Below are positions 6,399 through 39,744 of a DNA stretch of 57,163 nt, one piece after another. Source of the DNA: a virus; the IMG/VR virus record IMGVR_UViG_3300037452_000193, positions 1 through 57,163 of that record. One strand, written 5' to 3'. The position numbers and the translations under genes are program-made. The notes beneath the pieces were generated by a model that had not been told where the DNA came from, ran no database searches, and saw nothing but the letters and a program-made list of their open reading frames with translations. Positions within the stretch are counted from its first letter, which is position 1. Each line of letters opens with the position of its first letter.

Positions 6399-6575
6399 GT
6401 GGATCTCATCATCACGAAGACGGTGCGAGGCCTGCGGGCCTTGGGCCAGCACGAACTGGCCACCAACTACACCCGAGAGGCCGTCAATCTGTACGGCGGT
6501 GACGTCGTGCCTCTCCTCGACCTCCTCCAGGCGCTCACGCCCCAGGAGATCCGCTGGCTGGCCGAGCTCAACTGA
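6399..6575 (+). CDS. Small protein, first gene of the rightward early unit (58 aa)
   Basis: GTG start 5 bases after GGAG of the CCCTACGGAAAGGAG motif; the stop overlaps the next ATG (TGATG). It begins MDLIITKTVRGLRALGQHEL and is predicted mostly helical with mixed charge. It has no Cys and no clear HTH. As the first early gene beside the integrase it might be an excisionase-like or regulatory protein, but no motif supports a firm call. Confidence 0.65.
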   Translation: MDLIITKTVRGLRALGQHELATNYTREAVNLYGGDVVPLLDLLQALTPQEIRWLAELN

Positions 6576-7303
6576 TGGCTCGGGAGAAGCTGAGCGACCT
6601 CGCCTTTGCGGAGAGTCGTCACAGGTATACGGATCCGCGCACCGGCGAACGCGTCACCGGCGTGACCACCATCGTCGGCCATCTCGACACAGGCGACAAA
6701 CTCGGTGCCGGCGCCGCAGCCGCGGTGAGGCTCCAGAAGGAGGGGCTGGACCATCGCGAGGTGTGGGGGGAGAAAGCCGATACCGGGAACCGCGTCCATG
6801 GATACGCGGAGGACTGGGCCAAGGGCAAGAGCACCGTCGTCGATGCGCAAGACGAGCCTTATCTCGACGCCTTCGCTGCGTTCTGCAACGACCACCGTCC
6901 TGAGTGGCTCGAGGCTGAACGTGCCGTGGTCTCCCACCTCGGGTACGGCGGTCGCTTCGACCTCATCGGGGCCTGGGGAGAAGAGTTTTGGGCTGTTGAT
7001 CTAAAAACCGGGAAACAGTACCTCCCGGAACTCGCTCTCCAGTTGGCTGGCTACACCTCCTGCGACGGAATGATTGTCTACGACGAACGCGGCATGGCCG
7101 TTGATCTTGACCCGTTGCCCCATGTCGATCGCTGGGCAGGTCTCTACCTTCACGACGACGGCCACTACGAGTTGATCGAGGTGCCGCGGATCAAGCCTGA
7201 GGAGGGGATGCCCCGTGACGTCGCACAGAAGTGCGCCGTCGAGGCCTTCCGCCATCTCGCCGTCGTCAAGATTTGGGCCACAGCTGAAAAGAGGAAGCGA
7301 TGA
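6575..7303 (+). CDS. PD-(D/E)XK (RecB/Cas4-like) exonuclease
   Basis: 242 residues. The nuclease core is visible: GYGGRFDLIG near residues 122-131 (catalytic Asp), VDLKTGK near 140-146 (the D-x-K motif) and QLAGY near 155-159 (the Q-x3-Y motif of RecB-like nucleases). The N-terminal Y(T)DPRTGERVTGVTTIVGHLD is typical of phage RecB-like exonucleases. It is followed at once by an ERF-family annealing protein, making a two-component exonuclease/annealase pair for double-strand-break-based recombination. ATG overlaps the upstream TGA. Confidence 0.85.
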   Translation: MAREKLSDLAFAESRHRYTDPRTGERVTGVTTIVGHLDTGDKLGAGAAAAVRLQKEGLDHREVWGEKADTGNRVHGYAEDWAKGKSTVVDAQDEPYLDAFAAFCNDHRPEWLEAERAVVSHLGYGGRFDLIGAWGEEFWAVDLKTGKQYLPELALQLAGYTSCDGMIVYDERGMAVDLDPLPHVDRWAGLYLHDDGHYELIEVPRIKPEEGMPRDVAQKCAVEAFRHLAVVKIWATAEKRKR

Positions 7304-7344
7304 CTGACACGACCCTCTCCGAGCAGATCACCATTCTCCGATGA
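7300..7344 (+). CDS. 14-codon coupled mini-ORF
   Basis: ATG overlaps the exonuclease stop (ATGA) and the mini-ORF's own TGA overlaps the ATG of the ERF gene (ATGA). It encodes MTDTTLSEQITILR. The double overlap suggests it passes ribosomes from the exonuclease to the annealase gene and may set their ratio. Whether the peptide itself has a function is unknown; it is too short for domain analysis. Confidence 0.4.
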   Translation: MTDTTLSEQITILR

Positions 7345-8153
7345 GCGAGCCGGAAGGACCAGAAGTGACCGAGCCAGCTACCCCTCCAGAAGCCGGGCAG
7401 CAGCCCCTGAGGCCCCCTGAGGCCCCCCGACCGGCCCCGGGGGACGTCTGTAGCCATCCCACCTTTTGCGAGGCTCTGGCGCACGCTCAGAGCGACTTCC
7501 CGGTCATCCCGAAGGGCAAGACCGCCCGGATCAAACCCCGCGAGAAGCCGGAGTACACCTACGACTACGCGGACCTGGCCGACATCATCGAGGCGGTCAA
7601 GCCGATCCTCTTCCGGTGCGGTCTGTCGATCTCGCAGCCCATTGGCTTCACCAAGGGCGGCCAGGACTACCTGCAAACGATCCTCATGCACCCGGCAGGG
7701 AGGCTCAAGTCGCGGATGCGTCTCACCGTCCAGCAGTCCACCCCCCAGGCCACAGGATCCCTCATCACCTACTACCGCCGTTACGCCTACTGCGCCATCC
7801 TCGGCATCGTTTCGGAGGCTGACGACGATGGGTCCCTGGCCGAGGCCGCCTACGGAGCCGATGCACCGCGGCGCCGGCGCGCCCCGAGGTCTTCCACGCC
7901 GACGTCTGGCCGCAGAACGCCCACGCGCGCGCGGGGAGTCGAGGGAGACGGTCCGCCGGTCGGCATCATGTCGGCCAAGAACCGCAACGACATCGTGAAG
8001 CACTATGCCAAGGCCGATCCACCGGTCCGCGGCAACACCGAGGTCGAGCTGGCCATCCAGGCACTCATGAAATGGGACGCTCCGGTCACTCTCTCTTCGC
8101 TGACCGTCGAGCAGGGCGGCGACATCATGGACGCACTCGGAATAGCGCCTTGA
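7341..8153 (+). CDS. erf: ERF-family single-strand annealing protein
   Basis: 270 residues. After a Pro-rich N-terminal ~35 residues comes the ERF core: ALAHAQSDFPVIPKGK near 50, YTYDYADLADIIEAVKP near 72-88, and TGSLITYYRRYAY near 138-150 followed by GIVSEADDDG. These are hallmark ERF segments. Such proteins anneal complementary ssDNA and support phage recombination or circularisation. A basic linker (RRRRAPRSSTPTSGRR) leads to a small C-terminal domain. The partner nuclease is upstream and a DnaQ-like exonuclease is downstream, overlapping by four bases. Confidence 0.87.
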   Translation: MSEPEGPEVTEPATPPEAGQQPLRPPEAPRPAPGDVCSHPTFCEALAHAQSDFPVIPKGKTARIKPREKPEYTYDYADLADIIEAVKPILFRCGLSISQPIGFTKGGQDYLQTILMHPAGRLKSRMRLTVQQSTPQATGSLITYYRRYAYCAILGIVSEADDDGSLAEAAYGADAPRRRRAPRSSTPTSGRRTPTRARGVEGDGPPVGIMSAKNRNDIVKHYAKADPPVRGNTEVELAIQALMKWDAPVTLSSLTVEQGGDIMDALGIAP

Positions 8154-8899
8154 CCTGGTTGGATGGGCCTCTGTTGGGGCTGGACCTCGAGGCCACCGGC
8201 AAGGAGCCGGAGACTGCCATCCCGGTGCAGTTCGCACTGGCGTATTGGGATGGAGAGAAGTTCACCCAGGTCCGCCACGGTCTCATCAACCCCGGCGTCC
8301 CGATCCCCGAGGAGTCAACCGCGATCCATCACATCACCGACGAGATGGTGGCCGAACGCGGTGGAGACCTCGACAAGTCGATCATCGGCATCATCGGAGA
8401 GCTCGTCACCGCACAACTGGCGGGCACGCCGGTGGTGGCCATGAACGGTTCCTACGACCTCACTGTGCTGGACCGGTGCTATCGACGGGCCGGTGGTGGT
8501 GGACTCGTCGAGGACTTTCGATGGAATGGGCCGCTGATCGACCCGCTCGTCATCGACCGGCACATCGACCGCTTCCGGAAAGGCTCGCGCACTCTGTCCG
8601 CGCTCTGCCATCAGTACCAGGTACTCCTCGGTGAGGCCCACCAGGCTTATGCCGACGTGGCAGCCACGGTGCAGCTCGCACGGTACGTCGCCTGGACCAA
8701 ACGCAAGCGCCTGGACATCGACCCGCTCGAGCTCCATGCGTTGCAAGTCGTCTGGCATCGCGAGTGGCTCGATTCGTTCAACGAGTACCGAGCGAAGAAG
8801 GGGGACCCGGCGCTGCCTCCCGAAGAAGGTGACTGGCCCATCCGCGGCAGAAGTGCTTGCGTCACCGAAACGTCAGACGTAGGGTCAACCGCCCCCTGA
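8150..8899 (+). CDS. DnaQ-like 3'-5' exonuclease (DEDD family)
   Basis: Start is placed at TTG 8150, whose TTGA overlaps the ERF stop; the next in-frame starts lie inside the conserved core. It has the three exonuclease motifs: Exo I GLDLEATG (Asp/Glu at residues ~10-12), Exo II NGSYDLTVLDR (~98) and Exo III HQAYADVAAT (~164). Length 249 residues. It probably trims 3' ends during recombination or proofreads host-polymerase replication of phage DNA; no phage polymerase is present in the window. Confidence 0.85.
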   Translation: MTWLDGPLLGLDLEATGKEPETAIPVQFALAYWDGEKFTQVRHGLINPGVPIPEESTAIHHITDEMVAERGGDLDKSIIGIIGELVTAQLAGTPVVAMNGSYDLTVLDRCYRRAGGGGLVEDFRWNGPLIDPLVIDRHIDRFRKGSRTLSALCHQYQVLLGEAHQAYADVAATVQLARYVAWTKRKRLDIDPLELHALQVVWHREWLDSFNEYRAKKGDPALPPEEGDWPIRGRSACVTETSDVGSTAP

Positions 8900-8966: not shown

Positions 8967-9698
8967 GTGCCACGGTACCCCAAGAGTGTCGGGCCGCAAA
9001 CTCTTTCCACAGAGCGCGCCGGCCCAATCCCCCTGCGTGAGGGCCTTCTCCACTGGTTGTCCACACTCCCTGAGCGCGATCAGGAGGGCATCTTGGCGGC
9101 GAAGGGGGGGGGGAGAGTGAACGGTCTCCGGCGCTCCGAGCTTCGGCCTCGCCCCACCGTTTACCGGGGAATCAAGATGCGGTCGCGCCTCGAGGCGAAA
9201 TGGGCTGCCTATTGGGATCAAGAGGAGCAAGACCAGGCTAATGACGGGGTGGCCATGGGCTGGGAATACGAGCCCTATTGCTTCGCTTCGGGCGCGACCC
9301 AATACCTCCCGGACTTCAAGATCACATGGCCAGGCTCACCACTGGGAAGCTCGTGGTACTGCGAAGTCAAGCCTTACGTTCCCAAGGCGCTTGAGGACCT
9401 CATGGAAACCATGGAGGTCATCTTCGATTCTGAGCCGGATGCAGAGTTGTATATCTGCGTCGGCGATCCCGAGGTAGCCGACACTTGGGCCTACCGCTGC
9501 ATCCGGATGTATCCCTTGTCGTGGCCCGAATGGATGGACGGCGATGACCAAACCGTGCGTCAGCCATCCGCTCCGAACTGGTTTCAGGGATTCCAGCGGG
9601 ACTCCCGCGCCGCCGAGTTGATGCACGAACGGAACTGGGTGGGACTCCGCTCCTTGATGCTGGAGCATTTCCGGCGCCGGCGGTGGGTTTCTCGGTGA
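8967..9698 (+). CDS. PD-(D/E)XK-type endonuclease
   Basis: GTG follows a strong AAGGAGG site at 7-nt spacing, which decides the start. The core reads YRGIKMRSRLEAKWAAYWD, then WEYEPYCFASGATQYLPDF, then WYCEVKPYV: the Glu, Asp and E-x-K residues of a PD-(D/E)XK nuclease, as in phage VRR-NUC or Holliday-junction-resolvase-like endonucleases. 243 residues. A Trp-rich C-terminus (SWPEWMDGD, NWFQGF) follows. It lies in the recombination/replication unit and probably cleaves branched or replicating DNA. Confidence 0.75.
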   Translation: MPRYPKSVGPQTLSTERAGPIPLREGLLHWLSTLPERDQEGILAAKGGGRVNGLRRSELRPRPTVYRGIKMRSRLEAKWAAYWDQEEQDQANDGVAMGWEYEPYCFASGATQYLPDFKITWPGSPLGSSWYCEVKPYVPKALEDLMETMEVIFDSEPDAELYICVGDPEVADTWAYRCIRMYPLSWPEWMDGDDQTVRQPSAPNWFQGFQRDSRAAELMHERNWVGLRSLMLEHFRRRRWVSR

Positions 9699-10384
9699 GC
9701 GTCAAGGCGGTCTCCTGGGTCTTCGACCATTCCCCCTACACCCTCGGTGCTCGCCTTGTGCATCTCGCTCTGGCCGACATCGCCAACGAGGACCACGGCT
9801 GGCAGGTGTGGGTTTCAAAGTCGAAAATCGCTGAGAAGGCAAAAGTCAGTCGTGGAACGGTGACTTCCACGTTGGCAAAGATGGTCTCGGATGGATACCT
9901 CGAGGTCGTCGGGATGCAGGCCAAGGGGGTGACGACCTACCGTTTCCTGAGGCCAAAAGATGACCTGTCAGATTCTGACAGGTGCGCGATTGACGGCGTC
10001 GGACCTGCTCAATCAGTCGATCCCGCACCTCTTTTGTTGAACCAAATTGAACCAAAGACCGCGCGCGCTCAGGCGCGAGACCTCACCGGGTTCGACGCCT
10101 TTTGGGACGCTTACCCCTCCCGTCATGGCAAGAAAGAGCGACGATCACAAGCGGTCGATCAGTGGGTGAAGCTCTCTATTGAGGACCGTCGCGCAGCTTG
10201 GAGGGCAGCCCTCAACTACGCCTGCGCTTGCCAAGAGGAGCAGACCATCGCCGCTGACGCGTTTCGGTGGCTCCGTGACAGGAGGTGGGGAGACTGGCAA
10301 GAGGCGGCCGAGTACAACCCTCCGCAGGCATCAGTGACGGAGACGGCTGGCCCCTTGGAGTGGGTACCACCCGAAGACCAGTGA
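9695..10384 (+). CDS. Winged-helix replication initiation / helicase-loader-like protein
   Basis: Start at GTG 9695, overlapping the previous stop (GTGA), gives MSVKAVSWVFDHSP, the usual start of this phage family. Residues ~1-85 are a winged helix (LVHLALADIAN..GWQVWVSKSKIAEKAKVSRGTV..LAKMVSDGYLEV). A variable linker (~90-125) follows. The C-terminal FDAFWDAYPSRHGKKER...FRWLRDRRWGDW resembles DnaT/lambda-O/P-type helicase-loading domains. The linker-coding DNA carries a palindrome and tandem repeats (9963-10056), as in lambda O, where the origin lies inside the initiator gene. It overlaps the RepA-like ATPase gene by four bases. Confidence 0.8.
   Translation: MSVKAVSWVFDHSPYTLGARLVHLALADIANEDHGWQVWVSKSKIAEKAKVSRGTVTSTLAKMVSDGYLEVVGMQAKGVTTYRFLRPKDDLSDSDRCAIDGVGPAQSVDPAPLLLNQIEPKTARAQARDLTGFDAFWDAYPSRHGKKERRSQAVDQWVKLSIEDRRAAWRAALNYACACQEEQTIAADAFRWLRDRRWGDWQEAAEYNPPQASVTETAGPLEWVPPEDQ
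9963..10056. other. Candidate replication origin inside the initiator gene
   Basis: ACCTGTCAGA (9963-9972) and TCTGACAGGT (9974-9983) form a perfect inverted repeat around a single T. About 55 bases on, TTGAACCAAA occurs twice in perfect tandem (10037-10046 and 10047-10056) in a locally A/T-rich patch, followed by a GCGC-rich block. The DNA codes for the linker between the two domains of the initiator. The layout recalls origins within initiator genes; origin function itself is inferred. Confidence 0.4.
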
Positions 10385-11664
10385 CTGAGATCCGCGCCAA
10401 CCTCGAGGCCGAAGAGTGCGTCCTCGGAGCGGCCTTGCTTGACCGTCGGGCTGTCGAGGTGGCGCTGGCTGACCTCAGGCCCAGCGATTTCTACGCCCCC
10501 AAGAACGCTCACGTCTTTGACGCCATGGTGAGTCTCTACGAGGCGGGGACACGCGTTGACGGGGCCACGGTGGCCGACGTCCTCCGCCAGCGCGGCGTCC
10601 ACGACGAGATAGGGGGCGCGGCCTACCTGATCCAGATCCAGGCCAACGTCCCGTCGCCGGCCGGGATTGCCCAGTACACGGCCATTGTCCGTCGGGAATC
10701 CTCAGCGCGGGCCCTTCTGTGGGCGGCATCCGAGGCTCGGTCCGCTCTCCAGGACGACCTCCAGGACCCTCTCAGCGTGGCTGAGACCCTCGCAGGGCGT
10801 CTGGCGAGCCTGGACGGCGCTGGGAGGCTCCCCGAGCGATTCTGGCGGTCCTGGGACGACTACAGCGCCGATCCGCCGGCCGCTGTGTCCCAACCCCTCA
10901 TCGAAGGACTCTGCGATGTCGGGACTCGGACCATCATCCTCGCCGGTGAGAAGGCAGGGAAGAGCTGGCTCCTCCGGCAACTGGCCTTCTGCGCTGCTGC
11001 CGGGGTCCACCCCTTCAACTTTGGGCCGATCGAACCTGTTCGAGTCCTCGTGCTGGACGCTGAGAACCCCGATGCCGAGCTCTACTTGGCTGGAATCGAG
11101 GTGGCCAAGGTGCTCGACCAGCGCCCCCATGCTCAACCGATCCGGCCGGCCCTCCTGTCCTACCCCTATGGAGCTGACCTGCGCTCCCGTCGCGATCGTT
11201 CCGAGGTCGAGGCCGTGCTCGAGGACTTCAAGCCCCAACTGGTCATCGGCGGCCCGGTGTACAAGCTCATGCCGCGGGGCGAGCGCGAGGACATCGACGG
11301 TCACACCGCGGCGCTGCATCGCATCCTCGACGGGTTCCGGCGCCGGTGGGGTGTGGCCCTGATACTCGAGCACCACGCCCCGACGGGGATGCCCGGGAAG
11401 AACCGCGAACTGCGGTCCAAAGGCGGCCAGCAGTGGGCGGCCTGGCCCGAGGTCACTGTGTCCCTTCGGTCGAAGGTCGAGAACGGAGTCATCAGCGCGG
11501 AGGTGACCTACCCCCATCCTCCTCGCGGTCGATTTCGCTGGCCCCTTCGATTTGACCGGGCGACGCGACCGAGCGAGTGGCCATGGATGCCTATTCTCAG
11601 AAACGCCGATCGCGCGCCCGCGGCGGCAGCGGAGCCGTTGCCCCTGGTAGACGAGCCCTTCTGA
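10381..11664 (+). CDS. DnaB-N / RepA-like ATPase (replicative helicase)
   Basis: 427 residues, GTG start overlapping the upstream stop (GTGA). Residues ~5-105 match the DnaB N-terminal domain (LEAEECVLGAALLD, DFYAPKNAHVFDAM, QIQANVPSPAGIAQYTAIVR). From ~175 a RecA-like motor follows with Walker A GEKAGKSW near 187, Walker B VLVLDAENPD near 222, and VIGGPVYKL and LILEHHAP later. The motor resembles RepA/AAA_25 helicases rather than the DnaB C-terminal domain. It probably acts as the phage helicase, loaded by the protein encoded upstream. Confidence 0.82.
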   Translation: MTEIRANLEAEECVLGAALLDRRAVEVALADLRPSDFYAPKNAHVFDAMVSLYEAGTRVDGATVADVLRQRGVHDEIGGAAYLIQIQANVPSPAGIAQYTAIVRRESSARALLWAASEARSALQDDLQDPLSVAETLAGRLASLDGAGRLPERFWRSWDDYSADPPAAVSQPLIEGLCDVGTRTIILAGEKAGKSWLLRQLAFCAAAGVHPFNFGPIEPVRVLVLDAENPDAELYLAGIEVAKVLDQRPHAQPIRPALLSYPYGADLRSRRDRSEVEAVLEDFKPQLVIGGPVYKLMPRGEREDIDGHTAALHRILDGFRRRWGVALILEHHAPTGMPGKNRELRSKGGQQWAAWPEVTVSLRSKVENGVISAEVTYPHPPRGRFRWPLRFDRATRPSEWPWMPILRNADRAPAAAAEPLPLVDEPF

Positions 11665-11707
11665 AATCCGCGCATTGGAACGCTTGTTCGGCTACGGTGC
11701 CCTCCGC

Positions 11708-11767
11708 ATGACGGCGGTCACCTCTCCACGACGCTTCCTCGGAGCCACCTGGGAGGGGGGCGCGTAG
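11708..11767 (+). CDS. Leader peptide before the lysin gene (19 codons)
   Basis: ATG 11708 to TAG 11765-11767 encodes MTAVTSPRRFLGATWEGGA. The lysin GTG starts immediately after its stop, and the leader begins MTAV exactly as the lysin does. The lysin ribosome-binding site (GGGAGGGGGG) lies within the leader's last codons. The start of the leader and the start of the lysin form the two arms of a 13-bp inverted repeat. A regulatory leader is likely, but the evidence is positional. Confidence 0.4.
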   Translation: MTAVTSPRRFLGATWEGGA

Positions 11768-11779
11768 GTGACCGCCGTC
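11710..11779 (+). promoter_or_regulatory. Inverted repeat covering the lysin start codon
   Basis: GACGGCGGTCACC (11710-11722) and GGTGACCGCCGTC (11767-11779) are perfect 13-bp arms separated by 44 bases. In RNA the right arm, which contains the lysin GTG, would pair with the start of the leader ORF. A ribosome on the leader would disrupt the left arm and could open the lysin start. This is a possible translational timing device for lysis. Confidence 0.45.
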
Positions 11780-12502
11780 GACTTCTCATTCACCGTCCCC
11801 TCGGTGGCCGAGCTCGAGGTGGCCCAGGTCGTCGCCGTCGGCCGATACCTGACGGGCGCTGGGAAGTCCATCCTCCCGGTGGAGTTCGAGGACTACATGA
11901 CGGCGGGTATCGGGGTGTGGTTCGTCTTCGAGGACGGGGCCGACGATGCAGACGGCGGAGCAGGGATGGGCGCCGCCAACGCTCTCGCCGCCAACGACGC
12001 CCTCGTTGCACTGGGGCTGCCCACCTCCTGCCCGGTCTACTTCGCGGCCGACAAGGAGTACGCGCCGGGAGCCGAACCTGTGGGGTACTGGCAGGGCATC
12101 GCCACCGTCCGCCCGCGTCTCACCAATGGCGCCTATGGCCAGGGATCTCTGCTCACGCGGCTCCAGTCCATGGGCCTGATCGGCTTCGGCTGGCAGTCCG
12201 ACTCCGATTCGTTCCCTGGGAGCGGCCCGGTTGCCGTGGGCGCCGCAAATCTCCATCAACGCCCTACGGGCGCGCCCCTGTACGGCACTGACCTCGACCT
12301 GATCCTGACCCCGGACTTCGGCCAGTGGCCGCGGCCCGGTCTCACCCCAACCCCCCCCGAGGAGGACGAGAACATGACCTCGATCGAATATGCCGGCCAG
12401 ATGCACGTCTTTTGGACCAACCCCGCTACCGGAGTGTGCTCCCACTGGTGGCAGCAGTCGGGAGTGCCCGGCTGGCATTCGGAGCTCCTGCCGGCGCCGT
12501 GA
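11768..12502 (+). CDS. Endolysin candidate with DUF1906 (glycoside-hydrolase-like) domain
   Basis: 244 residues. The sequence matches the pattern of the DUF1906/Rv2525c-like TIM-barrel family seen in actinobacterial and phage cell-wall enzymes: an N-terminal strand and helix, GIGVWFVFEDGADDADGGAGMGAANALAANDALVALGLP, PVYFAADKEY, GYWQGI, GAYGQGSLL and FGWQSDSDSF. The C-terminal ~45 residues (IEYAGQMHVFWTNPATGVCSHWW) form a small Trp-rich segment that may bind the wall. There is no signal peptide, so a holin or other export route would be needed. It overlaps the next gene by four bases. Confidence 0.75.
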   Translation: MTAVDFSFTVPSVAELEVAQVVAVGRYLTGAGKSILPVEFEDYMTAGIGVWFVFEDGADDADGGAGMGAANALAANDALVALGLPTSCPVYFAADKEYAPGAEPVGYWQGIATVRPRLTNGAYGQGSLLTRLQSMGLIGFGWQSDSDSFPGSGPVAVGAANLHQRPTGAPLYGTDLDLILTPDFGQWPRPGLTPTPPEEDENMTSIEYAGQMHVFWTNPATGVCSHWWQQSGVPGWHSELLPAP

Positions 12503-12840
12503 AGCGCTCACCCCTACGGAGGCGATCGAAGAAACGCGCGAGCGCGACATATCGCGGTGCCCGCGCGCTCGCCGTCAACGAGGCCATCGAGCGCGACCGT
12601 CACTGCAAAGCCCTCGACCTGATCCCCGGCCATGTCTGCCGCGGCGGACTCGTCGGTCACGAGCCGGTGAAGCGGTCAGCGGGCGGCGATCCTCTCAACC
12701 CCGAGGAGGTCGTCGCGGTGTGCGAGGGTTTCAATTCCGACGTCGAGAGTGATGCGGATCTGGCGAAGGTGGCCCGAGAGGTCGGACTGGTGAAGTCAAT
12801 GGGATCCCGCTACGCGAATGGAAGGCTGGTGCGTCGGTGA
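12499..12840 (+). CDS. HNH-like (degenerate) nuclease-fold protein (113 aa)
   Basis: GTG overlaps the lysin stop. A very basic N-terminus (KRSPLRRRSKKR) is followed by HCKALDLIPGHVCRGGLVGHEPVKRSAGGDPLNPEEVVAVCEG: paired Cys residues, the HEP box and C-terminal Cys of small phage HNH proteins. The final histidine of the HNH motif is replaced by FNSD, so catalysis is doubtful. It may be a DNA-binding HNH relative or a weak nickase. Confidence 0.6.
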   Translation: MKRSPLRRRSKKRASATYRGARALAVNEAIERDRHCKALDLIPGHVCRGGLVGHEPVKRSAGGDPLNPEEVVAVCEGFNSDVESDADLAKVAREVGLVKSMGSRYANGRLVRR

Positions 12841-13283
12841 GTCCTATCGCCAACTACACGACGACGGTTCCTGTGTCGAAGAGTGTCGGAGAGGTCCATT
12901 CCATGCTCGTCGCCGCTGGAGCCCGCCAGATCATGTCGGAGTTCGCTGCCGGCGGCGAGCCGATCGGGGTCATGTTCTCTCTCCAGACGGCTCAAGGTCT
13001 TCGGGCATTCCAACTTCCGATCGAGGCTGGTCGCGTCCGTCGGGTGCTGACTCGGGATGCCCCGCCGCGGTTTCACTCCTCGGAACACGCTCAGCGAGTG
13101 GCTTGGCGGATCATGCGAGATTGGCTGCGAGCCCAGCTCGCCATCGTGGAGACCGAGATGGTCGAGTTCGATCAGGTGATGCTGCCCTACATGCGAACTG
13201 AGGGCGGCGCCACGGTCTATGACCGGTATCTCGAAGGCGGCATCCCCGCGTTGTCGGAAGGGGGTGCCGCGACGAACGACTGA
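12837..13283 (+). CDS. Conserved actinophage protein of unknown function (148 aa)
   Basis: GTG overlaps the previous stop (GTGA). It begins MSPIANYTTTVPVSKSVGEV, with ...GARQIMSEF... and AWRIMRDWLRAQLAIVE...VMLPYM, a pattern seen in a widespread actinophage early-gene family with an N-terminal beta region and a C-terminal helical WR(I/L)..W..AQLA.. motif. The family has no established function; location in the replication unit suggests a DNA-metabolism role. Confidence 0.65.
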   Translation: MSPIANYTTTVPVSKSVGEVHSMLVAAGARQIMSEFAAGGEPIGVMFSLQTAQGLRAFQLPIEAGRVRRVLTRDAPPRFHSSEHAQRVAWRIMRDWLRAQLAIVETEMVEFDQVMLPYMRTEGGATVYDRYLEGGIPALSEGGAATND

Positions 13284-13397
13284 CAACCGGACATGCCAAC
13301 CCGGCGCACACCCATGCGAAAGCGAGGCCGACTGATCCTTCCCGATCACCGGCCGGGGCTCTGTATGCGAAGTCGGGGTCCTACATCCGAACGCCGC

Positions 13398-13411
13398 GGT
13401 CCTTCGGGACC
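13398..13411 (+). other. UUCG-tetraloop hairpin upstream of 13432
   Basis: GGTCC (13398-13402), TTCG, GGACC (13407-13411) form a short stable hairpin about 20 bases before the GTG at 13432 and just upstream of its GAGAGGAG ribosome-binding site. It may be a processed 5' end or a weak terminator in the 148-base gap 13284-13431, which otherwise holds no supported gene. Confidence 0.45.
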
Positions 13412-13431
13412 AGATCGAGAGGAGTGGCCCC

Positions 13432-13995
13432 GTGCGCCGCTACTTCCCATTGTTCCTTGTCATTGTCCCTTTGCTCGTCCTCACTCAGCCATGGCAGCCA
13501 TCACCATCACCCTCAGCGACAAGCTCGCCACCAGCATCGACGCCGCTCTTTGTGGCGAAGTTGAGGCTCGGGCAGTTCTTTGCTGTGTCCAAGACCTCGT
13601 CGTGGAAGCTCGTCGGCGTGCCACCTCCGGTACCTACGACGACTACAACCTCGACGACGACCCCGCCTTCGCCTGTGCCTGCGGCAATCCAAGCGCCTTC
13701 GGTCTCATCCACACCACCGGTTCCGGCGGTTGTCGCCCCTTCGCCGCCGGCGGCTCCCACATCTGATGCCTACGCCGAATGGACGCGGGTCGCAGTCTGC
13801 GAAGAAGGAGGGTGGATCGGCTACGCCGGCCCCGCCTACCCCGACTCCCTCGGAATATCGGCGGCGAACTGGGCTGCTTACGGCGGCGGCTCCGATCTTG
13901 CCCCTTCCGCTCAGATCGCGGTGGCTCAGTCGATTGAGGCGGCGGCGGGCACCCCGGGATACGTCCCCGATCAGGGAAGCTGCGCGGCGTGGTGA
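13432..13995 (+). CDS. Exported RPF/transglycosylase-like protein
   Basis: 187 residues. The N-terminus MRRYFPLFLVIVPLLVLTQP is a signal peptide or membrane anchor. A ~90-residue Pro/Thr/Ser linker (PVPTTTTTSTTTPPSP) spans the wall. The C-terminal ~75 residues (YAEWTRVAVCEEGGWIGY...DSLGISAANWAAYGGG...AQIAVAQSIEA...PDQGSCAAW) match resuscitation-promoting-factor/lytic-transglycosylase domains, with Glu in CEEGGW as candidate catalytic residue and two Cys for a disulfide. It would hydrolyse peptidoglycan outside the membrane. Together with the DUF1906-like lysin it gives the phage two wall-degrading enzymes; it could act in lysis or spore/wall remodelling. Confidence 0.78.
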   Translation: MRRYFPLFLVIVPLLVLTQPWQPSPSPSATSSPPASTPLFVAKLRLGQFFAVSKTSSWKLVGVPPPVPTTTTTSTTTPPSPVPAAIQAPSVSSTPPVPAVVAPSPPAAPTSDAYAEWTRVAVCEEGGWIGYAGPAYPDSLGISAANWAAYGGGSDLAPSAQIAVAQSIEAAAGTPGYVPDQGSCAAW

Positions 13996-14031
13996 ATTGA
14001 GGACGCGGGGCTACGAACCGAAGGAGCCAAC

Positions 14032-14391
14032 ATGAACAAAAAGCAGAAGCGGTGCCGCCACGACGCCCTGGCCGATGCCAAGGACGGGGGGTCGATCTGT
14101 ATCGACTGTGACCGCACCTGGTCGTCCCCCCCGGAGCCCCGTGTCTCACCTGTCGCTGTGGACTGCATGACACCTGATGTCATCAACGTCCCGGCGGGCA
14201 TCACGGACATCACTGCCTTGGTGGTGGCCGGGGACGAGCTCCGCGACGTCCTCAACCGGTGCAAGGGCCGCGGCATCTCGAACAAAGCCTCGAGCGTCCC
14301 GGCCCAGCACGAGATCAACCGCGCCCTCAGCCGTTGGAAGATGGAAGCCCACCCGAGGGTCGACCTCCCTGTTCGCGAAGCCGCTGAGTGA
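14032..14391 (+). CDS. Small Cys-containing protein of unknown function (119 aa)
   Basis: ATG after GAAGGAGCC. The N-terminal ~35 residues hold a zinc-knuckle-like C..H...C-x2-C set (CRHDALADAKDGGSICIDC). The middle (GDELRDVLNRCKGRG...EINRALSRW) is helical. It overlaps the LexA-N-like gene by four bases (GTGA). Function unknown; perhaps a regulator expressed with its neighbour. Confidence 0.6.
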   Translation: MNKKQKRCRHDALADAKDGGSICIDCDRTWSSPPEPRVSPVAVDCMTPDVINVPAGITDITALVVAGDELRDVLNRCKGRGISNKASSVPAQHEINRALSRWKMEAHPRVDLPVREAAE

Positions 14392-14606
14392 CTGACGAGA
14401 CGGGAGAGCGCATCTTGGCGTTCGTCCGAAAGTTCCGGGAGAAGGAGGGGTACGCGCCGACCATCCGCGAGATCGCCGCGGGTTGCGGGGGGCTCTCCGT
14501 GGACACCGTGCATCGTCACCTCAAGCACCTCGAGCGCGTCGGGCGCGTGACCTGGGGGCCCGGGAGCTCGACGGCCAAGGCGAGGACGCTCCAGGTGATC
14601 GAATGA
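14388..14606 (+). CDS. LexA N-terminal-type winged-helix DNA-binding protein (72 aa)
   Basis: MTDETGERILAFVRKFREKEGYAPTIREIAAGCGG-LSVDTVHRHLKHLERVGRV: the complete LexA DNA-binding domain (helix, PT(I/V)REI, recognition helix) with no peptidase domain after it. It can bind DNA but cannot self-cleave, so it may act as a Cro-like regulator, an SOS-box mimic or an antirepressor partner. GTG and stop both overlap neighbours by four bases. Confidence 0.75.
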   Translation: MTDETGERILAFVRKFREKEGYAPTIREIAAGCGGLSVDTVHRHLKHLERVGRVTWGPGSSTAKARTLQVIE

Positions 14607-15103
14607 GTGGGTGGGCGTTTACCGCCCTCGGCGTTCCGGCGCCTCAGGGCTCGAAGCGAGCGTTTGTGAACAGGCATACCGGGCGAGCGAGCGTCGTCGA
14701 GGCTTCGGCTCGAGCTCGTCCCTGGCGCGAAACGATCAAGGCTTCGGCTCCCCCCGGGGCCCAGCGCCTCGACGGACCGGTCGCCATGGCCTGTGCCTTC
14801 ACCATGCCTCGTCCCAAGTCGGCACGAAGGGCCGATCACATTCCCTGCTCTCGCCCCGACGTCGACAAGCTGGCGCGCCTCGCCCTCGACGCCTGTGTCG
14901 AGGCGGGGATCCTGGCCGACGACGCGCGGGTCGCTTGGCTTCTGGCAACGAAGGTCTGGTACCCCTACGATCTTCATGCCCTCGACACGCCCGGAGTCGT
15001 GATCGCTGGGTGCGAGATCGTCCTGGGATCCTGGCAGTCGTTCCTCGAGGGGCTCATGGACATTGCCGTGAAAAAACACCAAGACCGCCGCGCTGCGGTT
15101 TGA
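14603..15103 (+). CDS. rusA: RusA-family Holliday junction resolvase
   Basis: 166 residues starting at ATG 14603. It has the RusA signatures: GVPAPQGSKRAF near 9-20, AFTMPRPKS near 68, the catalytic region RPDVDKLARLALDAC near 84-98, and ILADDARVAWL near 102-112, which together supply the acidic residues. It would resolve four-way junctions made during recombination by the exonuclease/ERF system. Overlaps the LexA-N-like gene by four bases. Confidence 0.85.
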   Translation: MSGWAFTALGVPAPQGSKRAFVNRHTGRASVVEASARARPWRETIKASAPPGAQRLDGPVAMACAFTMPRPKSARRADHIPCSRPDVDKLARLALDACVEAGILADDARVAWLLATKVWYPYDLHALDTPGVVIAGCEIVLGSWQSFLEGLMDIAVKKHQDRRAAV

Positions 15104-15114
15104 AAGGAGCCACC

Positions 15115-15525
15115 ATGCCCGTCGAACCCCGAGACCTCGGGATCCACAAAGGACAGCCGATCAAGAGCGAGACCGTCGTCCTCCGCAAAGGGGCGCGCGT
15201 GTTCCGCGACGTCTCCGAACTCGCCTCGTTCGAGGTGGAAGACGGCCAGATCGGTTTCGCCATGCTGATGTTCCGGCAAGCAGGGGACAGCTTCGAGGCA
15301 GTGATGTCCTCGGACGAGCCGGACAAGATCATCGGGTACGACCGCAAGCTCCTCTTGGACGTGGTGGGCGCGGCCCCCGACGACCGCGAAGGAACCGCGA
15401 AGACCTTGGAGCGGATGGCCGCCCGGGTGGCTGACCGGGCCGAGCAGAAGCGCCAGGAGAAGGCGGGGAACGTGCGGTTGGCCGGGATCGACCCGGTGCC
15501 CGACGATGACGGAGAGGGCGATTGA
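15115..15525 (+). CDS. Early protein of unknown function (136 aa)
   Basis: ATG after AAAGGAGCCACC. Mixed alpha/beta sequence; the N-terminus GQPIKSETVVLRKGARVFRDVSEL and the acidic, helical C-terminus (RMAARVADRAEQKRQEKAGN...DDDGEGD) give no family. The acidic tail is reminiscent of ssDNA-binding or DNA-mimic proteins, a weak suggestion only. Its stop overlaps the TTG start of the HNH gene. Confidence 0.6.
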   Translation: MPVEPRDLGIHKGQPIKSETVVLRKGARVFRDVSELASFEVEDGQIGFAMLMFRQAGDSFEAVMSSDEPDKIIGYDRKLLLDVVGAAPDDREGTAKTLERMAARVADRAEQKRQEKAGNVRLAGIDPVPDDDGEGD

Positions 15526-16073
15526 CCGTGGCCGCGCCCTGCTGGATCGCCGGCTGCGGCCGCCCGGCGCGGCGACGCGGCTGGTGTCCCGCTCACGCCT
15601 CCCGCTTCTACCGCCATGGCGATCCCCTAGCGGGGACCCGCGAGCGCCGACCCAAGGATGTCGATCCGGCCGACTGGTTTTGGCGGTACGTCGACAAGGA
15701 AGGCGCTGTTCCCACGTTCAGGCCTGATCTCGGGCACTGCTGGATATGGACTGGGTACCGGAGCGCGAGGGGCTACGGGCGCCTCTCTATCGGTGGCCAG
15801 ACGTACCTCGCTCACAATGTCGCCTATGAGATCGTGGTGGGGCTCCCCATTTCCGGGCTTGAGCCGGACCACCTCTGCCGCGTCACCTCATGCGTGAATC
15901 CGGCGCACATCGAGCACGTGACCCATCAGGAGAACACGCGGCGCGGTTTCGCGGTGAAGATCGCGTGCCCCGTCGGTCACCCCTACGACGATGTCAACAC
16001 TTACGTCGACCCCGAAGGGCATCGGCGGTGCCGTGCTTGCGCGAGGGAGCGCGATCGTGCGAGGGCGCGATGA
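15522..16073 (+). CDS. HNH endonuclease with N- and C-terminal zinc clusters
   Basis: Start TTG 15522 overlaps the upstream stop (TTGA); GTG 15528 is an alternative. The N-terminus CWIAGCGRPARRRGWCPAH is a small zinc finger. The centre CWIWTGYRSARGYGRLSIGGQTYLAHNVAYEIVVG...EPDHLCRVTSCVNPAHIEHVTHQEN is the HNH_3-type homing-endonuclease core (DH...N..H). The C-terminus CPVGHPYDDVN...RRCRAC is another zinc cluster. Likely a free-standing homing endonuclease or a packaging-associated HNH protein; location favours the former. Confidence 0.8.
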   Translation: MTVAAPCWIAGCGRPARRRGWCPAHASRFYRHGDPLAGTRERRPKDVDPADWFWRYVDKEGAVPTFRPDLGHCWIWTGYRSARGYGRLSIGGQTYLAHNVAYEIVVGLPISGLEPDHLCRVTSCVNPAHIEHVTHQENTRRGFAVKIACPVGHPYDDVNTYVDPEGHRRCRACARERDRARAR

Positions 16074-27132: not shown

Positions 27133-27200
27133 CCTTCCGTAGGGGTTTGTGTGCTCCACTGTCTATACAGTGTGCGCCCATGCGGGCGAGGTGTCAATAC
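27133..27200 (-). promoter_or_regulatory. Operator/promoter region of the 27126 unit
   Basis: Minus-strand order: GTATTGACA (27200-27192), an inverted repeat CGCCC-GCAT-GGGCG, GTATAGACA (27168-27160, itself within the near-palindrome ACTGTATAGACAGT), then CCCCTACGGAAGG at 27146-27134. The two half-sites are in direct orientation, 23 bases apart. TTGACA to TGTATA is 22 bases, as at 25.2 kb. A regulated promoter is likely but its exact -10 is uncertain. Confidence 0.5.
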
Positions 27201-27250
27201 GCTTAGGACAGTTCATCTCCCGGGGGAGCGAGTTGGGGCGGGGTCGATGC

Positions 27251-27412
27251 TCAGTCTCCTGCCTTGTGCGCCCTTGACCATGACTCTCCGTCGGCTTTGC
27301 AGCTGAGCCGGCCGGAGGAATCGCCACAGGTCTCGCAATGGGCGATCCAATGAGACCAGACACCGCGGCCGACTGGGACCACGCGGACCAGGTGCTCGGG
27401 GTAGTCGACCAT
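27251..27412 (-). CDS. Small protein with C-x2-C motif (53 aa)
   Basis: ATG 27412 overlaps the upstream TGA (TGATG). MVDYPEHLVRVVPVGRGVWSHWIAHCETCGDSSGRLSC reads like a one-strand zinc-binding protein. Found by following the overlap; the competing frame across this stretch has no family features. Confidence 0.55.
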   Translation of the reverse strand: MVDYPEHLVRVVPVGRGVWSHWIAHCETCGDSSGRLSCKADGESWSRAHKAGD

Positions 27413-27714
27413 CACATCACACTGGCAAGGGCGGCGGCATCATCAGTCTGGACAAAGACCTCGCGGATATACCCGCACCCTGCCTCCTCCTCGAGCTGGC
27501 CACTGGCAAGCAGTGGCAAAAGCTCAGTGGCTGTGAACATGCGTCGGTCAGTCTCACCCTTGACCACAAACCGTGTACCTGGTGAGTGGTCGCGGACGAT
27601 ATGGACAAACCGGGCGCATCCTTCACACTGGCAGAGCCAGATACCACGCTGGCCCACCAGGTCGGCCCTGGTGGCCATCTCATGGCCCATGGTCAACATT
27701 GCGCCTTCATTCAT
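27412..27714 (-). CDS. First leftward gene from the central control region (100 aa)
   Basis: ATG 27714 behind CCCCTACGGAAAAGGAGCGCCG. MNEGAMLTMGHEMATRADLVGQRGIWLCQCEGCARFVHIV carries a CxC-x2-C cluster, then RFVVKGETDRRMFTATELLPLLASGQL and a YIREVFV strand. As the promoter-proximal gene of an operator-controlled unit it may be a regulator; no defined HTH is visible. Confidence 0.6.
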   Translation of the reverse strand: MNEGAMLTMGHEMATRADLVGQRGIWLCQCEGCARFVHIVRDHSPGTRFVVKGETDRRMFTATELLPLLASGQLEEEAGCGYIREVFVQTDDAAALASVM

Positions 27715-27727
27715 CGGCGCTCCTTTT

Positions 27728-27803
27728 CCGTAGGGGAATCGGCGCCCTCTTCGACGCCTTGTTGCCTCCTCATTGTATAGACACACACACTCTCTGTCAA
27801 TAC
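27728..27803 (-). promoter_or_regulatory. Main leftward promoter with inverted operator
   Basis: Minus strand: -35 TTGACA (27800-27795), 17-nt spacer, -10 TACAAT (27777-27772), the best sigma-70-type promoter in the window. Half-sites GTATAGACA (27775-27783) and TGTCAATAC (27795-27803) flank an 11-nt spacer and overlap both hexamers, as at the integrase promoter. The CCCCTACGGAAAAGGAG motif (minus strand, 27737-27721) ends the ~50-nt leader. Confidence 0.75.
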
Positions 27804-28186
27804 ACATGAGACACCCCATCCCCCACCAGGCTCTAACACCGGTACTACGGTTCCCGAACTAGTCGGTCCGAAGCAATGCTCCCGACAGAACCGAAGAGCT
27901 CGAAGCTTTCGGGAACGCCAGCAAATCAAAGCGGCGAAAGGTTGCTGTCTAAATCTATATGACAGTGCAGAAAACGGGCCGCATTTGGCGTCTTCCGCCA
28001 CCCTTCCGGCGTGCTAGCTACCGCGAGCACTTTTCGGCCTCGCCCCACGACAAGCCGCTGACCAGGGATAACATACAGTCGCTACTATGTGTGCTCCGCA
28101 AGGCAGGCCGGCGGTGCTCAGGTATAGGCGATTTCCCCCTTTTTGTTTCTCCCATCCCCCGCTAAGTCGCCTATATCCCCCAACAC
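27804..28186. promoter_or_regulatory. Bidirectional control region between leftward and late genes
   Basis: No convincing gene; a 68-codon rightward frame at 27959-28165 has no ribosome-binding site or protein-like composition. Visible elements: an A/T-richer patch with CTGTC...GACAG arms near 27946-27966, a candidate rightward promoter TGACCA-N18-TACTAT (28059-28088), and an inverted repeat TATAGGCGA (28123-28131) / TCGCCTATA (28167-28175) around a pyrimidine-rich 35-base spacer just before the first late gene. Could hold the late-gene switch, a packaging (cos/pac) site or attP. Confidence 0.5.
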
Positions 28187-30656: not shown

Positions 30657-32230
30657 GCCAGGAAGCTCTCGACCTCCTCTTCGGCATGGTGCTGGAGGAC
30701 GGTCGGAGGTGGGGCGATGCGGCGGCCGACTTCCAGATCGAGGATGCCAAGGCGATCCTCCTCAATGAACGCCCCGACCCGACCTGGCACTTCCTCACCC
30801 GTGCTCGGGGCGGGTCGAAATCGACCGACGTCGGAGCCATTTCCATCGCCTGGCTGGTGGAGGACGCCCCTCCGCTCTCGAACGGCCATATCGTCGCCGC
30901 CTCCACAGACCAAGCCTCGATCGTCATTGATGCGGCCCACGGGCTGATCGCGCGCACCCCTGAGCTCGCGGATGCTCTGGTGGCCGAATCCGTCCGCCTC
31001 CGGGCCCCGAACGGCGCCTGGGTCGAGGTACTGGCTCAATCCGACTCCGGAGCCTGGGGCTTGCGCGACGCCCGCCTGATCGTGGCCGACGAGTTCTGCC
31101 AATGGCCGGAGACCCGTGGAGCGAAGCGGGTGTGGCAGGCCCTCCAATCGGCGGCTCCGAAGGTCCCGAACTGCAAGCTCATCGCCATGTCCTCGGCGGG
31201 CGAGCCCTCTCATTGGACGCGCGACGTCCTCGAGAAGGCGCAGACCAACCCCCTGTGGCGAGTGAACGAAGTTCCCGGTCCTGTTCCTTGGCTCAATGCG
31301 GAGGAGCTCGAGGCCCTCAAGTGGGACCTCCCCCCCTCCGCCTACGAGCGCCTCGTTCTCAACATCTGGTCCGAGGCCGAAGATCGAGCCGTATCTGAGG
31401 AGGACTGGAACTACGCGGCCCGGGACTACTCCTCCCTGAGCCCTCAGCCCAACATCCGCTACATCATCGCCGTGGACATCGGCATCCTGAACGACGCCTC
31501 GGTCATGGTGATTGCTCACAAGGAGCCGATTGATGACCAAGCTCGCTTTGGGCCTCATCGAGTTGTGGTCGACCACGTCGAGCGATGGAAAGGCTCCAAG
31601 AAGAAGCCGATCAACCCCTCGGACGTCGAGGACTGGCTGGTGCAGCAGGCGCCGCGGTGGAACCGGGCCACGGTCTACGCCGACCCCGACCAGTTCCGAG
31701 GCAACGTCCTCAACCTCAACCGACGCGGAGTGCGGGCCAAGGAGTTCCCTTTCACGGCCACGTCGGTGGGGACGGTGGCGACGGCCCTGGTCCAGACCTT
31801 CCGCAGTCGACAGATCTACGTCCCCGCCCGGCCGCCGGCCGGCCCGGTCCTGAAAGACGAGCTCCTCCGGGTCCGCCTGCGTGAATCCGCCCCCGGAGTA
31901 ACGCGGCTCGACCACGACCGCGGCGGGCACGACGACCAGGCCGTGACCGTCGGGATGGCCTGCAAGCTCCTGTTGGGCAACGCCGGGGCCATTGGTGCAA
32001 ACTTTCGTGAATTCATGATTCGCGATAGTGAGCGCCAGCTCCAAAAGCGGACTGAGCGCGGTCGGCAGGACGATGCCAAGTCTCGGCTCGAGCGGCGCAT
32101 GAACAATCGGAGAGAGGTGGTGCGCAGGACGCGCCGCCGGGAGCGCGAGGAGTGCCTCCACCGTTGGAGCCCGGACGGCTCCTACTGCGTGTTCTGCTTC
32201 ACGCCGAAGCCCGAAGAGGTCCCCGTCTGA
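30653..32230 (+). CDS. terL: Terminase large subunit
   Basis: 525 residues. ATPase: Walker A-like ARGGSKST at 51-58 and Walker B LIVADEFC near 141-148. RNase-H-like nuclease: AVDIG near 272, YADPDQ near 340, and HDRGGHDDQAV near 420. Powers DNA translocation into the prohead and cuts genome ends. The C-terminal ~60 residues are Arg/Glu-rich with a Cys pair (CLHRWSPDGSYCVFC), a small zinc motif not usual in terminases. GTG overlaps terS stop; TGA overlaps portal ATG. Confidence 0.92.
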   Translation: MSQEALDLLFGMVLEDGRRWGDAAADFQIEDAKAILLNERPDPTWHFLTRARGGSKSTDVGAISIAWLVEDAPPLSNGHIVAASTDQASIVIDAAHGLIARTPELADALVAESVRLRAPNGAWVEVLAQSDSGAWGLRDARLIVADEFCQWPETRGAKRVWQALQSAAPKVPNCKLIAMSSAGEPSHWTRDVLEKAQTNPLWRVNEVPGPVPWLNAEELEALKWDLPPSAYERLVLNIWSEAEDRAVSEEDWNYAARDYSSLSPQPNIRYIIAVDIGILNDASVMVIAHKEPIDDQARFGPHRVVVDHVERWKGSKKKPINPSDVEDWLVQQAPRWNRATVYADPDQFRGNVLNLNRRGVRAKEFPFTATSVGTVATALVQTFRSRQIYVPARPPAGPVLKDELLRVRLRESAPGVTRLDHDRGGHDDQAVTVGMACKLLLGNAGAIGANFREFMIRDSERQLQKRTERGRQDDAKSRLERRMNNRREVVRRTRRREREECLHRWSPDGSYCVFCFTPKPEEVPV

Positions 32231-35200
32231 TGCCTCGACTTCCTCGGTTGCGGTCACGCACTCCCGTGCTCGAGCCTGGCGAGCTCCTCACCCGGGCCAT
32301 CAAGGTCGCCACGAAGCCCGAGACGCTGGCGGAGTTCCGTCCCGAGGACCGTCGGAGCATCGACGAAGTGGCCCAGGCCCTCAAGGCCGGGGCGAACTGG
32401 ACCCCTCCGGGGACGAGCTCAGGGACGGTCGCCCAGTTGTCCCGGGCCCGGCCCGTGTCGGCCACGGTGCTGGCGCAACAGGCCCGTCAATCTCTGGCCC
32501 CGAGCTCGACCCTCACGCCGGCCCATATCGAGATCGCTCTTCGTGACCAAGGTCTCGACTGGGTGCAGCCCTTCGCTCCTGGCCGTCCCCTCACCCCGTA
32601 CTACGGCTACGACCGCCGGCCGCGCGAGCGCAACTACGAAGTCGGCCGCAACATCACGACGCAAACGCGTCCCGGACGCATCCCCTACGAGACCCTCAAG
32701 CACCTCATCGAGTCCTACGACGTGGCGATGATCTGCATGAGGCACGCCATCCAGGATCTTCGCTCGATGCGCGTCCGCTTCGAAGCCATGGATGGGTACG
32801 AAGAGAACCCGGTCAAAGAGATCGCCGCGGCCAAGGATTTCTGGCGGCGCCCCGATCGGAAGATCGACATCGAGACGGGCAAGCCCATCCCCAACACCGG
32901 GATGACGCTGCGCAACTGGCTGTGCAAGCACGCGACCGACGTGTGGCGGTTCGACTGCGGCTCCATGTATCGCCACCGCGACCGTGCCGGCCGGCTCCTC
33001 AGCCTTCCGATCCCCGACGGCACGCTCTTCGCGCCGATGCTCGACTACTTCGGTACGAATCCCTCGGGGGACGCTCCGGCTTTCCAGCAGTTCATCCAGG
33101 GAATCCCCTGGGACTGGATCCGGTGGGACGCTCTCATCTACGAGCCGATGTGGCCGCACACCGAGGATCCTTACGGTGTCGCGCCGATCGAGACGATCCT
33201 CGTCAACGCCAACACGGACATCCGGCTCCAGACGTACTTCCTCCAGTTCTTCACGACGGGCACCGTTCCAGAAGCGTTCGCCATCGCGCCCGAGGATCAG
33301 TCCGACCCCGACTCTCTTGCCGACTGGCAGGAGATGTACAACGACTGGTCCTACGGCGACCAATCCGAGCGGTGGGGCCTCCGTTGGCTGCCCCACGACA
33401 CCGAGCTCGAGTTCTACAAGCCCCAGCAGTTCGACCCGGAAGTGGCCGAGTACGTCATGCGGCGCACGGTCGCGGCGTTCATGATGGTGCCCCACGACCT
33501 CGGTTTCACTGCCGACGTCAATCGGTCCACCGCTGATACGCAGATGGACACGCAGTTCCGGATCAACTCGCTGCCTCACGTCGCCTACTACGAGGACATC
33601 ATGGACGCGGTCACCCAGGAAGACCTGGGGCTGCCCGTCCAGATCCGCTTCGACACCGGTCGCGAGAAAGAAGACCGCCTCATGGAGGCGCAGGCCCACC
33701 AGATCTACGTTTCGATCGGGGCTGAATCGGCGGACGAGGTGCGGGACAAGGTTCTCGGCCATGCCATCAATCCCGAGGAGAAGGTCCCCCGCTTCTTCGA
33801 CTCGGTGCGCCTGGGCCCGATCCCCATCGCCTACCTGCTCGCCACCGCAGGAGATGTCGACCCCCTCACCGGTGCACCTCGTCCTGGGACGGTCCAAGCC
33901 CGCGACCTCGTGCTTCCAGGGACGCCGGGGCCCGACCCGGTGGCCGACCCGCCGAGCTCCAACTACCCCAACGCGGCTGGGCACGACCAGCAGCGCGAAC
34001 GGCAGGGGGTGATCGGTCCCCCAAAAGCCGCCGGCCCGCTCGTCCCCGGGCCCCTCTCACCAGAAGCCAGCAGAGGGCGAACCAACGGCGCGAGACCCGC
34101 GCCGAGAACCGGCGCCAATCCGCCGCGACCCCGAGGCGGAGCCGGCCCCGATCAGGGAACAGCGGCTAGGCGCACCCTCAAGGAAGCCACCGCGGGGGTG
34201 TCGCTGGCTACTGGCATTGCCGGTTCACCGGGCCTCATCCCGACCGAGGTGCCTGACGAGGACGAGATCACCGAGGACGTGCTCCGCTGGCGCCGTCAGT
34301 CGCGCAAGCGCGTGGCCAAGGGCAAGCCCCCGCGCCCCTTCGAAAACTCGGCCATCCCGAACGCTCTTCATTTCGAAGTATGGAAGAGCCTCCAGGAGGC
34401 GCGAACCCGCGAGGCCGTCGACGAGGCGTTCTTCTCGGCCTTCCAGCCGTACCAGCCCTACGAGGAGACCGAGACCCGTCCCTTCTCCGGTCTGGCTCTT
34501 CGAGCCAAGGACACGGGCCGCGTGCTCATGGTCCAACGGGCCCCCGACCTCAGTGACCCAGCGGGTGGGTACTTCGAGTTCCCCGGCGGCCACGTCGACG
34601 AGGGCGAGAGCACCTACGACGGGTCCCTCCGCGAGTGGGAGGAAGAGACCGGCTGCAAGATGCCGCCGGGCGCCTGCCGCGTCTCGGGTTGGGAGTCGTC
34701 GAACGGCATCTACCGGGGCCACATTTGGGAGACCCCGGCCGAGTCCGACGTCGACCTGTGGGACCGTACCGAGGTCGAGAACCCGGACAACCCCGACCAG
34801 GACGAGGACCAGTTCGAAGCCATCGTCTGGATGAACCCAGGGCACATCTCCAACAACCCCGTGGTCCGCCCTGAGCTGCGTCTCGACAGCCAACTGGTCC
34901 AGGATGCCCTCAAGAAGGAGGCTGCGCCCAACCTGGCCGGCCTCGCCCTCGTCGCCGCTGACACCGATCGTGTCCTGATGGTCCAGCGGGGCAACAAGGA
35001 CGACGGCGGGGGAGCGCGCTTCGAGTTCCCCATGGGCCACCTCGACGGTGGGGAGAGCGCCCGGTCCGCCGCCCGTCGCGAGTGGCAGGAGGAGACCGGA
35101 GCCACCCTCCCCAAAGATGCCGAGGAGATCGGCACCTGGTCCCACGAGGACTTCCAGGGCTTCGTCTACCGCATCCCCAAGCAAGACAGCGTCAAGCTCG

Positions 35201-39708: not shown

Positions 39709-39744
39709 CCCCGCACACGACCCAAGAGAGAGGAGGAGCCCACC

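Follow-up and report, generated by a model that had tools for sequence, protein, structure and literature searches.

A predicted hairpin that may seal the endolysin start codon within the replication block of an uncultured phage

The DNA analyzed here is the record of an uncultured virus, 57,163 bases long with a GC content of about 65%, and the whole of this stretch is referred to as the window. The genes that frame the locus are listed below.

6575-7303, exonuclease
7341-8153, ERF
8072-8899, RNase T-like exonuclease
9683-10384, replication-initiation-like protein
10285..11664, plus strand, DnaB-like replicative helicase with a DnaB N-terminal domain and AAA_25 (PF00772 E 1.3e-26, PF13481 E 2.4e-16, phrog_19 E 2.7e-22)
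11768..12502, plus strand, endolysin of 244 amino acids with an Rv2525c-like glycoside-hydrolase-like domain
13432-13995, transglycosylase-like protein (phrog_29757, E 8.2e-5)
14483-15103, RusA-like protein
15522-16073, HNH protein
30653, terminase; 32152, portal; 46580, tape measure; tail genes up to about 55 kb

The lysin gene is placed in the early/replication block, between the helicase gene and the RusA-like and HNH genes, and the terminase, portal and tail genes are found at 30-57 kb. The stop codon of the helicase gene lies 103 nt 5' of the lysin start on the same strand, a gene order that fits a lysin carried on read-through mRNA from the early genes. Terminase relatives were found in five syntenic viral records (62-67% identity), and more distant ones in contigs of metagenome-assembled genomes, assigned to Acidimicrobiales or Actinomycetes at six of eight loci. 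Because these contigs belong mostly to such taxa, the host of this phage is probably an actinobacterium. The helicase had no close relative in viral contigs, and its 576 matching phage records all fell below 60% identity. Two observations were made in passing on other proteins of this lineage. The portal ORF (32152-35355, 1067 amino acids) combines a portal match at residues 158-534 with a C-terminal match to MutT/NUDIX hydrolase families, a portal-NUDIX fusion, and a protein of the relative G002 (L009 5539-6687) contains DSVGDSVWTSV-like repeats in a long run.

The lysin protein matches PF08924 with an E-value of 1.7e-9 (38.5 bits, above the curated cut-off of 27.2) and the phrog_13480 endolysin family with an E-value of 1.1e-9. 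No phage record matched it at E 1e-5, and no close relative was present in viral or genome contigs; at E 10, 12 phage records were retrieved, among which Mycobacterium and Gordonia lysins were plausible. Its first residues, MTAVDF, align with the N-termini of the lysins of a sister phage (G005), of Mycobacterium phage prophi91-3 and of Gordonia phage Jumbo, with an invariant Asp common to all. Judged from this alignment, GTG 11768 is the true lysin start. The elements recognized around it are as follows.

11693..11698, plus strand, TACGGT, a -10-like hexamer just 5' of the leader ATG; the best -35 scores 2/6, none being credible, and a promoter role is unsupported
11708..11767, plus strand, putative leader ORF of 19 codons, MTAVTSPRRFLGATWEGGA, from ATG 11708 to TAG 11765-11767
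11710..11723, plus strand, 5' arm of a 14-bp inverted repeat
11732..11742, plus strand, inner pairing segment CGCTTCCTCGG, in the loop, predicted to pair with the Shine-Dalgarno stretch and its flanks
11751..11760, plus strand, Shine-Dalgarno stretch GGGAGGGGGG of the lysin, inside the 42-nt loop
11766..11779, plus strand, 3' arm, which includes the final two TAG bases, the lysin GTG and lysin codons 2-4

An earlier note on this DNA had described a 13-bp inverted repeat through which the start region of the leader pairs perfectly with the lysin start. The repeat and its perfect pairing are real, but its length is 14 bp: 11710-11723 (GACGGCGGTCACCT) is complementary to 11766-11779 (AGGTGACCGCCGTC), 42 nt apart. 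Since the lysin start is supported by the alignment with three phage lysins, the stem would cover the true start codon and codons 2-4. When loops of 3-80 nt were considered, this was the longest perfect inverted repeat in the window, the runner-up being one of 12 bp (41288-41320). Repeats of at least 14 bp were expected 0.03, 0.06 and 0.06 times per simulated window under Markov models of order 1, 3 and 5, respectively (200 simulations each). About 3.3% of positions would bring an arm onto the sense start of a called gene, and the product of the two figures gives about 0.001-0.002 expected 14-bp repeats on a start, a rough after-the-fact value that was computed once the site had already been picked and that is to be read as an upper bound on rarity. 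As the site was picked for its striking look, the chance figures for the repeat are optimistic. Arm-like sequences with up to three mismatches are frequent in the window (37 versus 14.5 expected), and apart from the arms themselves no sequence in it matched an arm with one mismatch or none.

Some related sequences were recorded on the way. The leader's first ten bases, ATGACGGCGG, occur again at 11897-11906 inside the lysin gene and at 54740, and the 11897 copy could pair over 8 bp with the 3' arm, as a weak alternative partner. The runner-up repeat at 41288-41320 is a perfect, GC-only hairpin with a 9-nt loop, located 17 nt past the stop of ORF 39604-41271 in a terminator-like position.

RNA folding, the check proposed in the earlier note, was carried out on pieces of increasing length, and the lysin GTG was indeed predicted to be sealed. 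In contexts of 186, 301 and 501 nt, the pairs of the stem had probabilities of 0.98-1.00 and the GTG an unpaired probability of 0.00. A 91-nt piece folded at -46 kcal/mol (z -3.55), with equally stable folds in 1 of 200 shuffles; the total energy of a 186-nt piece was unremarkable (z -1.27; 23 of 200 shuffles equally stable) because the surrounding sequence folds well too. The ribosome-binding site had been placed in the loop of the hairpin, which is correct with respect to the outer stem, although the predicted sealing goes further: loop bases 11734-11740 pair with most of the Shine-Dalgarno stretch in the predicted fold, leaving unpaired probabilities of 0.07-0.17 at 11755-11760, whose partners are 11734-11739, and of 0.31-0.65 at 11751-11754.

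To compare this start with others, we computed the opening cost, defined as the energy needed to clear positions -17 to +13 of a start, for 60 of the 61 genes called in the window, the last one being too close to its end; the calls were made by a simple method based on codon usage and Shine-Dalgarno sequences, which is rough and misses some homology-supported genes. With a folding window of -60/+30, the lysin start cost 36.3 kcal/mol and ranked first of 60 (mean 14.2, sd 4.9), and with -90/+60 it cost 32.0 and again ranked first. With a short window of -40/+20, which leaves out the 5' arm, it ranked fifth. A cost of 36.3 kcal/mol was reached by none of 600 random plus-strand ATG or GTG codons, and by 2 of 460 random GC-rich positions at related lysin loci. 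The contribution of the 5' arm was visible when the transcript was shortened: a 5' end at or before 11708 gave an opening cost of about 31 kcal/mol, 30.7 at 11708 itself, and 5' ends at 11716, 11720 and 11724 gave 21.7, 20.3 and 19.3. Similarly, holding the 5' arm unpaired lowered the cost from 28.5 to 19.0 kcal/mol. Even with this arm opened, the lysin start would still cost about 19 kcal/mol, above the mean of the called starts. These computations support a hairpin in which the lysin start codon would be hidden together with most of its Shine-Dalgarno stretch, with a predicted sealing far stronger than at any other of the 60 called starts.

A serious rival explanation, although the less likely one, is that the repeat is neutral and arose by chance. 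The 3' arm consists of frequent GC-rich codons, ACC GCC GTC (Thr Ala Val), and the upstream match could have been produced by drift or by a short template-switch mutation, then tolerated, or left without consequence if another wall-degrading enzyme does lysis. The 0.03-0.06 such repeats expected per window and the abundance of arm-like sequences are in its favor, and so is the lack of conservation, as the repeat is found neither in the sister phage nor in 79 family members. Only one of the five syntenic terminase relatives carried a PF08924 lysin, and this start is unsealed; at the unsealed start of the lysin of the sister phage G005, a member of this family, the opening cost is 16.2. A profile search yielded 80 distant lysin loci, of which 79 could be scored, with start codons picked by a heuristic so that some may be wrong; an inverted repeat of at least 11 bp over the start was seen at 0 of these 79 related phage lysin starts. 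Searches with the site itself retrieved no DNA relative in the phage collection (blastn, 1301 bases), and the two-arm pattern did not recur in viral contigs. The transglycosylase-like protein at 13432-13995, which has counterparts beside RusA in two relatives, also fits the chance explanation, since the lysin may then be expendable.

Two points weigh against chance. The repeat falls on the start codon with the highest opening cost of the 60 starts, and the related lysin starts are mostly open, with a mean opening of 11.4 and a maximum of 27.2 (n=79) compared with a mean of 15.3 at 790 random positions. As related phage lysin starts are usually open, the sealed start is atypical, and it should be selected against unless it is useful. 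As for the transglycosylase-like protein, which is encoded near the RusA-like gene, ORFs with a similar-looking C-terminal part, judged by eye, were noticed in two relatives (L006 3902-4450 and L014 3372-3953, minus strand), near a RusA or RNase T gene; this protein may be the conserved lysis or entry enzyme of the lineage.

We also considered whether the leader could act on the lysin. As had been claimed, the leader stop directly precedes the lysin start, TAG 11765-11767 abutting GTG 11768. The leader is in the lysin's own frame, with the two starts 60 nt apart, so that it amounts to the part of that frame 5' of the GTG, ended by an amber codon. Starts immediately preceded by a stop codon make up 3 of the 61 genes called and 2.1% of 3000 randomly chosen ATG or GTG codons, a background against which the arrangement is unremarkable; among 69 such stop-start sites in the window, 30% have an in-frame ATG 10-60 codons upstream. 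The mere presence of a small upstream ORF was dropped as evidence because it was uninformative: under a loose definition, such ORFs are seen before 43 of the 60 genes and also before 28% of random sites. The shared MTAV run pointed out in the earlier note is present in both proteins and the arms are complementary, but the Thr and Ala codons differ (ACG GCG in the leader, ACC GCC in the lysin) and the run offers no independent evidence; it is a by-product of arms that are complementary and nearly self-symmetric (ACSGCSGT).

The rival explanation built on this ORF holds that ribosomes translating the 19-codon leader melt the hairpin, end at the TAG, and either reinitiate at the GTG or let others load, so that lysin output depends on leader translation. 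Adjacent stop and start codons favor reinitiation, and coupling by RNA unfolding or reinitiation is documented, including for the MS2 coat-lysis pair (PMC12548453). The leader frame is the best-scoring of the three frames over 11665-11767. In the sister phage, the lysin ATG overlaps the stop of the preceding ORF by 4 nt (ATGA), indicating that coupling to an upstream ORF occurs in the lineage. The same adjacency, however, is what random starts and upstream ATG codons supply at the rates given above. The codon score of the leader is near zero, at the 16th percentile of in-frame windows and above 98% of off-frame windows, hence between the two classes, and the leader is not conserved. Its only Shine-Dalgarno candidate is a 4-nt GGTG at 11696-11699, which is not convincing, and the predicted hairpin also takes in the leader start, which costs 28.4 kcal/mol to open with the 3' arm present and 14.2 with this arm left out. 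The leader is thus unproven as a gene, and the role of opener that it had been given was not supported; on balance we regard this switch as unlikely. A 44-codon ORF (11577-11711) was also seen, which overlaps the helicase end in another frame and whose stop codon shares an ATGA with the leader ATG; small ORFs could be linked into a coupled chain in this way, but the arrangement is probably a coincidence.

The region was also scanned for promoters. No sigma-70-like promoter was found in 10200-14200, in a scan that would miss a phage-specific promoter type. No promoter was recognized inside the hairpin, the two TANNNT sites of 11500-11770 (11592 and 11693) lying upstream of the arm, and no Rfam covariance model matched 11500-12000 up to E 1; the suggestion that an RNA change opens the hairpin therefore found no support. 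The hexamer at 11693, TACGGT, ends 9 nt before the leader ATG and resembles the TACNNT -10 hexamers in the intergenic gaps of this phage, which makes a near-leaderless start of the leader conceivable; leaderless upstream ORFs are common in mycobacteria (PMC4633059). Its -35 reaches 2/6, against 6/6 for a site at 27777 on the minus strand. A promoter at this hexamer would fit only a leaderless reading of the leader, because the mRNA would begin close to the leader ATG and still contain the hairpin. A promoter at 11693 might give a near-leaderless mRNA on which leader ribosomes melt the hairpin and hand over at TAG-GTG, an arrangement we consider quite improbable. In this improbable reading, the lysin would stay locked on read-through early mRNA, where the leader ATG is internal and lacks a good Shine-Dalgarno sequence, and leaderless initiation would serve for timing in place of the truncating late promoter of T4. 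Elsewhere in the window, the site at 27777 (minus strand) is a perfect TTGACA, 17 nt and TACAAT, in a gap (27150-28100) with many promoter-like hexamers on both strands; this gap is perhaps the main control region of the phage.

A perfect dyad in a 103-bp gap, where a transcription signal might be expected, could alternatively be an element of DNA or transcription, either the operator of a regulator or a terminator or attenuator between helicase and lysin. The arms lie 42 nt apart, and the operator was dropped for want of a second arm copy with 0 or 1 mismatch in the window. The terminator was dropped as well: the site lacks a T-run, no terminator was called there, and the 3' arm is lysin coding sequence. 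We consider an element of this kind very improbable.

The explanation we propose is a translational lock acting in cis on the endolysin within the early/replication transcription unit, a model that we hold with belief and doubt in about equal measure. On mRNA reading through from the helicase side, the 14-bp stem would hide the lysin GTG, and the inner helix would hide most of the Shine-Dalgarno stretch. 30S subunits would then be barred from loading, and no lysin would be made early. Release could occur via an mRNA that begins within the 5' arm or downstream of it, generated by a late promoter or an RNase cut; alternatively, ribosomes traversing the 5' arm could open the start. From the predicted fold, we infer that the hairpin may form in the cell and lower lysin synthesis, and that it may be regulated and selected. 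The earlier note had proposed a switch that delays lysin translation. Its core agrees with the start being strongly sealed by prediction and with the lysin lying in the early block, a position in which delayed lysin translation makes sense, while the openers it named, the leader or an RNA change, are unsupported.

Holins and late promoters are usually credited with the timing of lysis. A lock of this kind, if real, would allow a lysin gene to be kept inside a replication operon without early killing of the host. In a limited search of open-licence papers, we came across no actinophage lysin described as having its start sealed by a hairpin. The nearest annotated lysins, those of prophi91-3 (lysin A) and Jumbo, resemble the present one in their PF08924 domain, their aligned start and 27-31% identity, but their genes are neighbors of tail or lysis genes, and their starts are open (opening 6.3 and 11.5).

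There are precedents for hairpins that seal the start of a late phage gene on early mRNA, namely T4 gene e, soc, 49 and I-TevI (PMC3014915, PMC2988022). The lock on T4 gene e goes back to McPheeters et al. 1986, as given in PMC3014915 and in the reference list of PMC2988022. PMC3014915 describes gene e as sealed on long early transcripts and as translated from late ones that start within the structure, with a 100-fold difference. As in T4, the gene of a lysis enzyme would be reached here by long early transcripts (judging by gene order), and the predicted hairpin would sequester both Shine-Dalgarno sequence and start codon and free the start when its 5' arm is truncated. Unlike here, T4 has mapped late promoters within the 5' part of the structure, and we have not filed the lysin hairpin under the gene e system because none was recognized here. 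The enzyme family also differs, and the present phage is GC-rich and probably infects actinobacteria. The T4-type locks on homing endonucleases (I-TevI, I-TevII, I-TevIII, segB and Aeh1 mobE) are alike in that a hairpin over the ribosome-binding site silences a late product on early polycistronic mRNA, but those genes are not lysis genes, and release is by a late promoter in the hairpin. Coupling by RNA unfolding, as in MS2 coat-lysis and rpmI-rplT, shares with our site a downstream start whose inhibitory structure could be melted by upstream translation; there, however, the upstream partners are real genes, whereas here it is a putative 19-codon ORF whose start lies within the same hairpin. 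The T4 lock has been tested and is found in related phages, while the one described here is predicted, in one genome. If it is real, this translational silencing of a lysin on early mRNA, for which T4 is the best-documented case, would have arisen independently in a differently ordered phage, probably of Actinomycetota.
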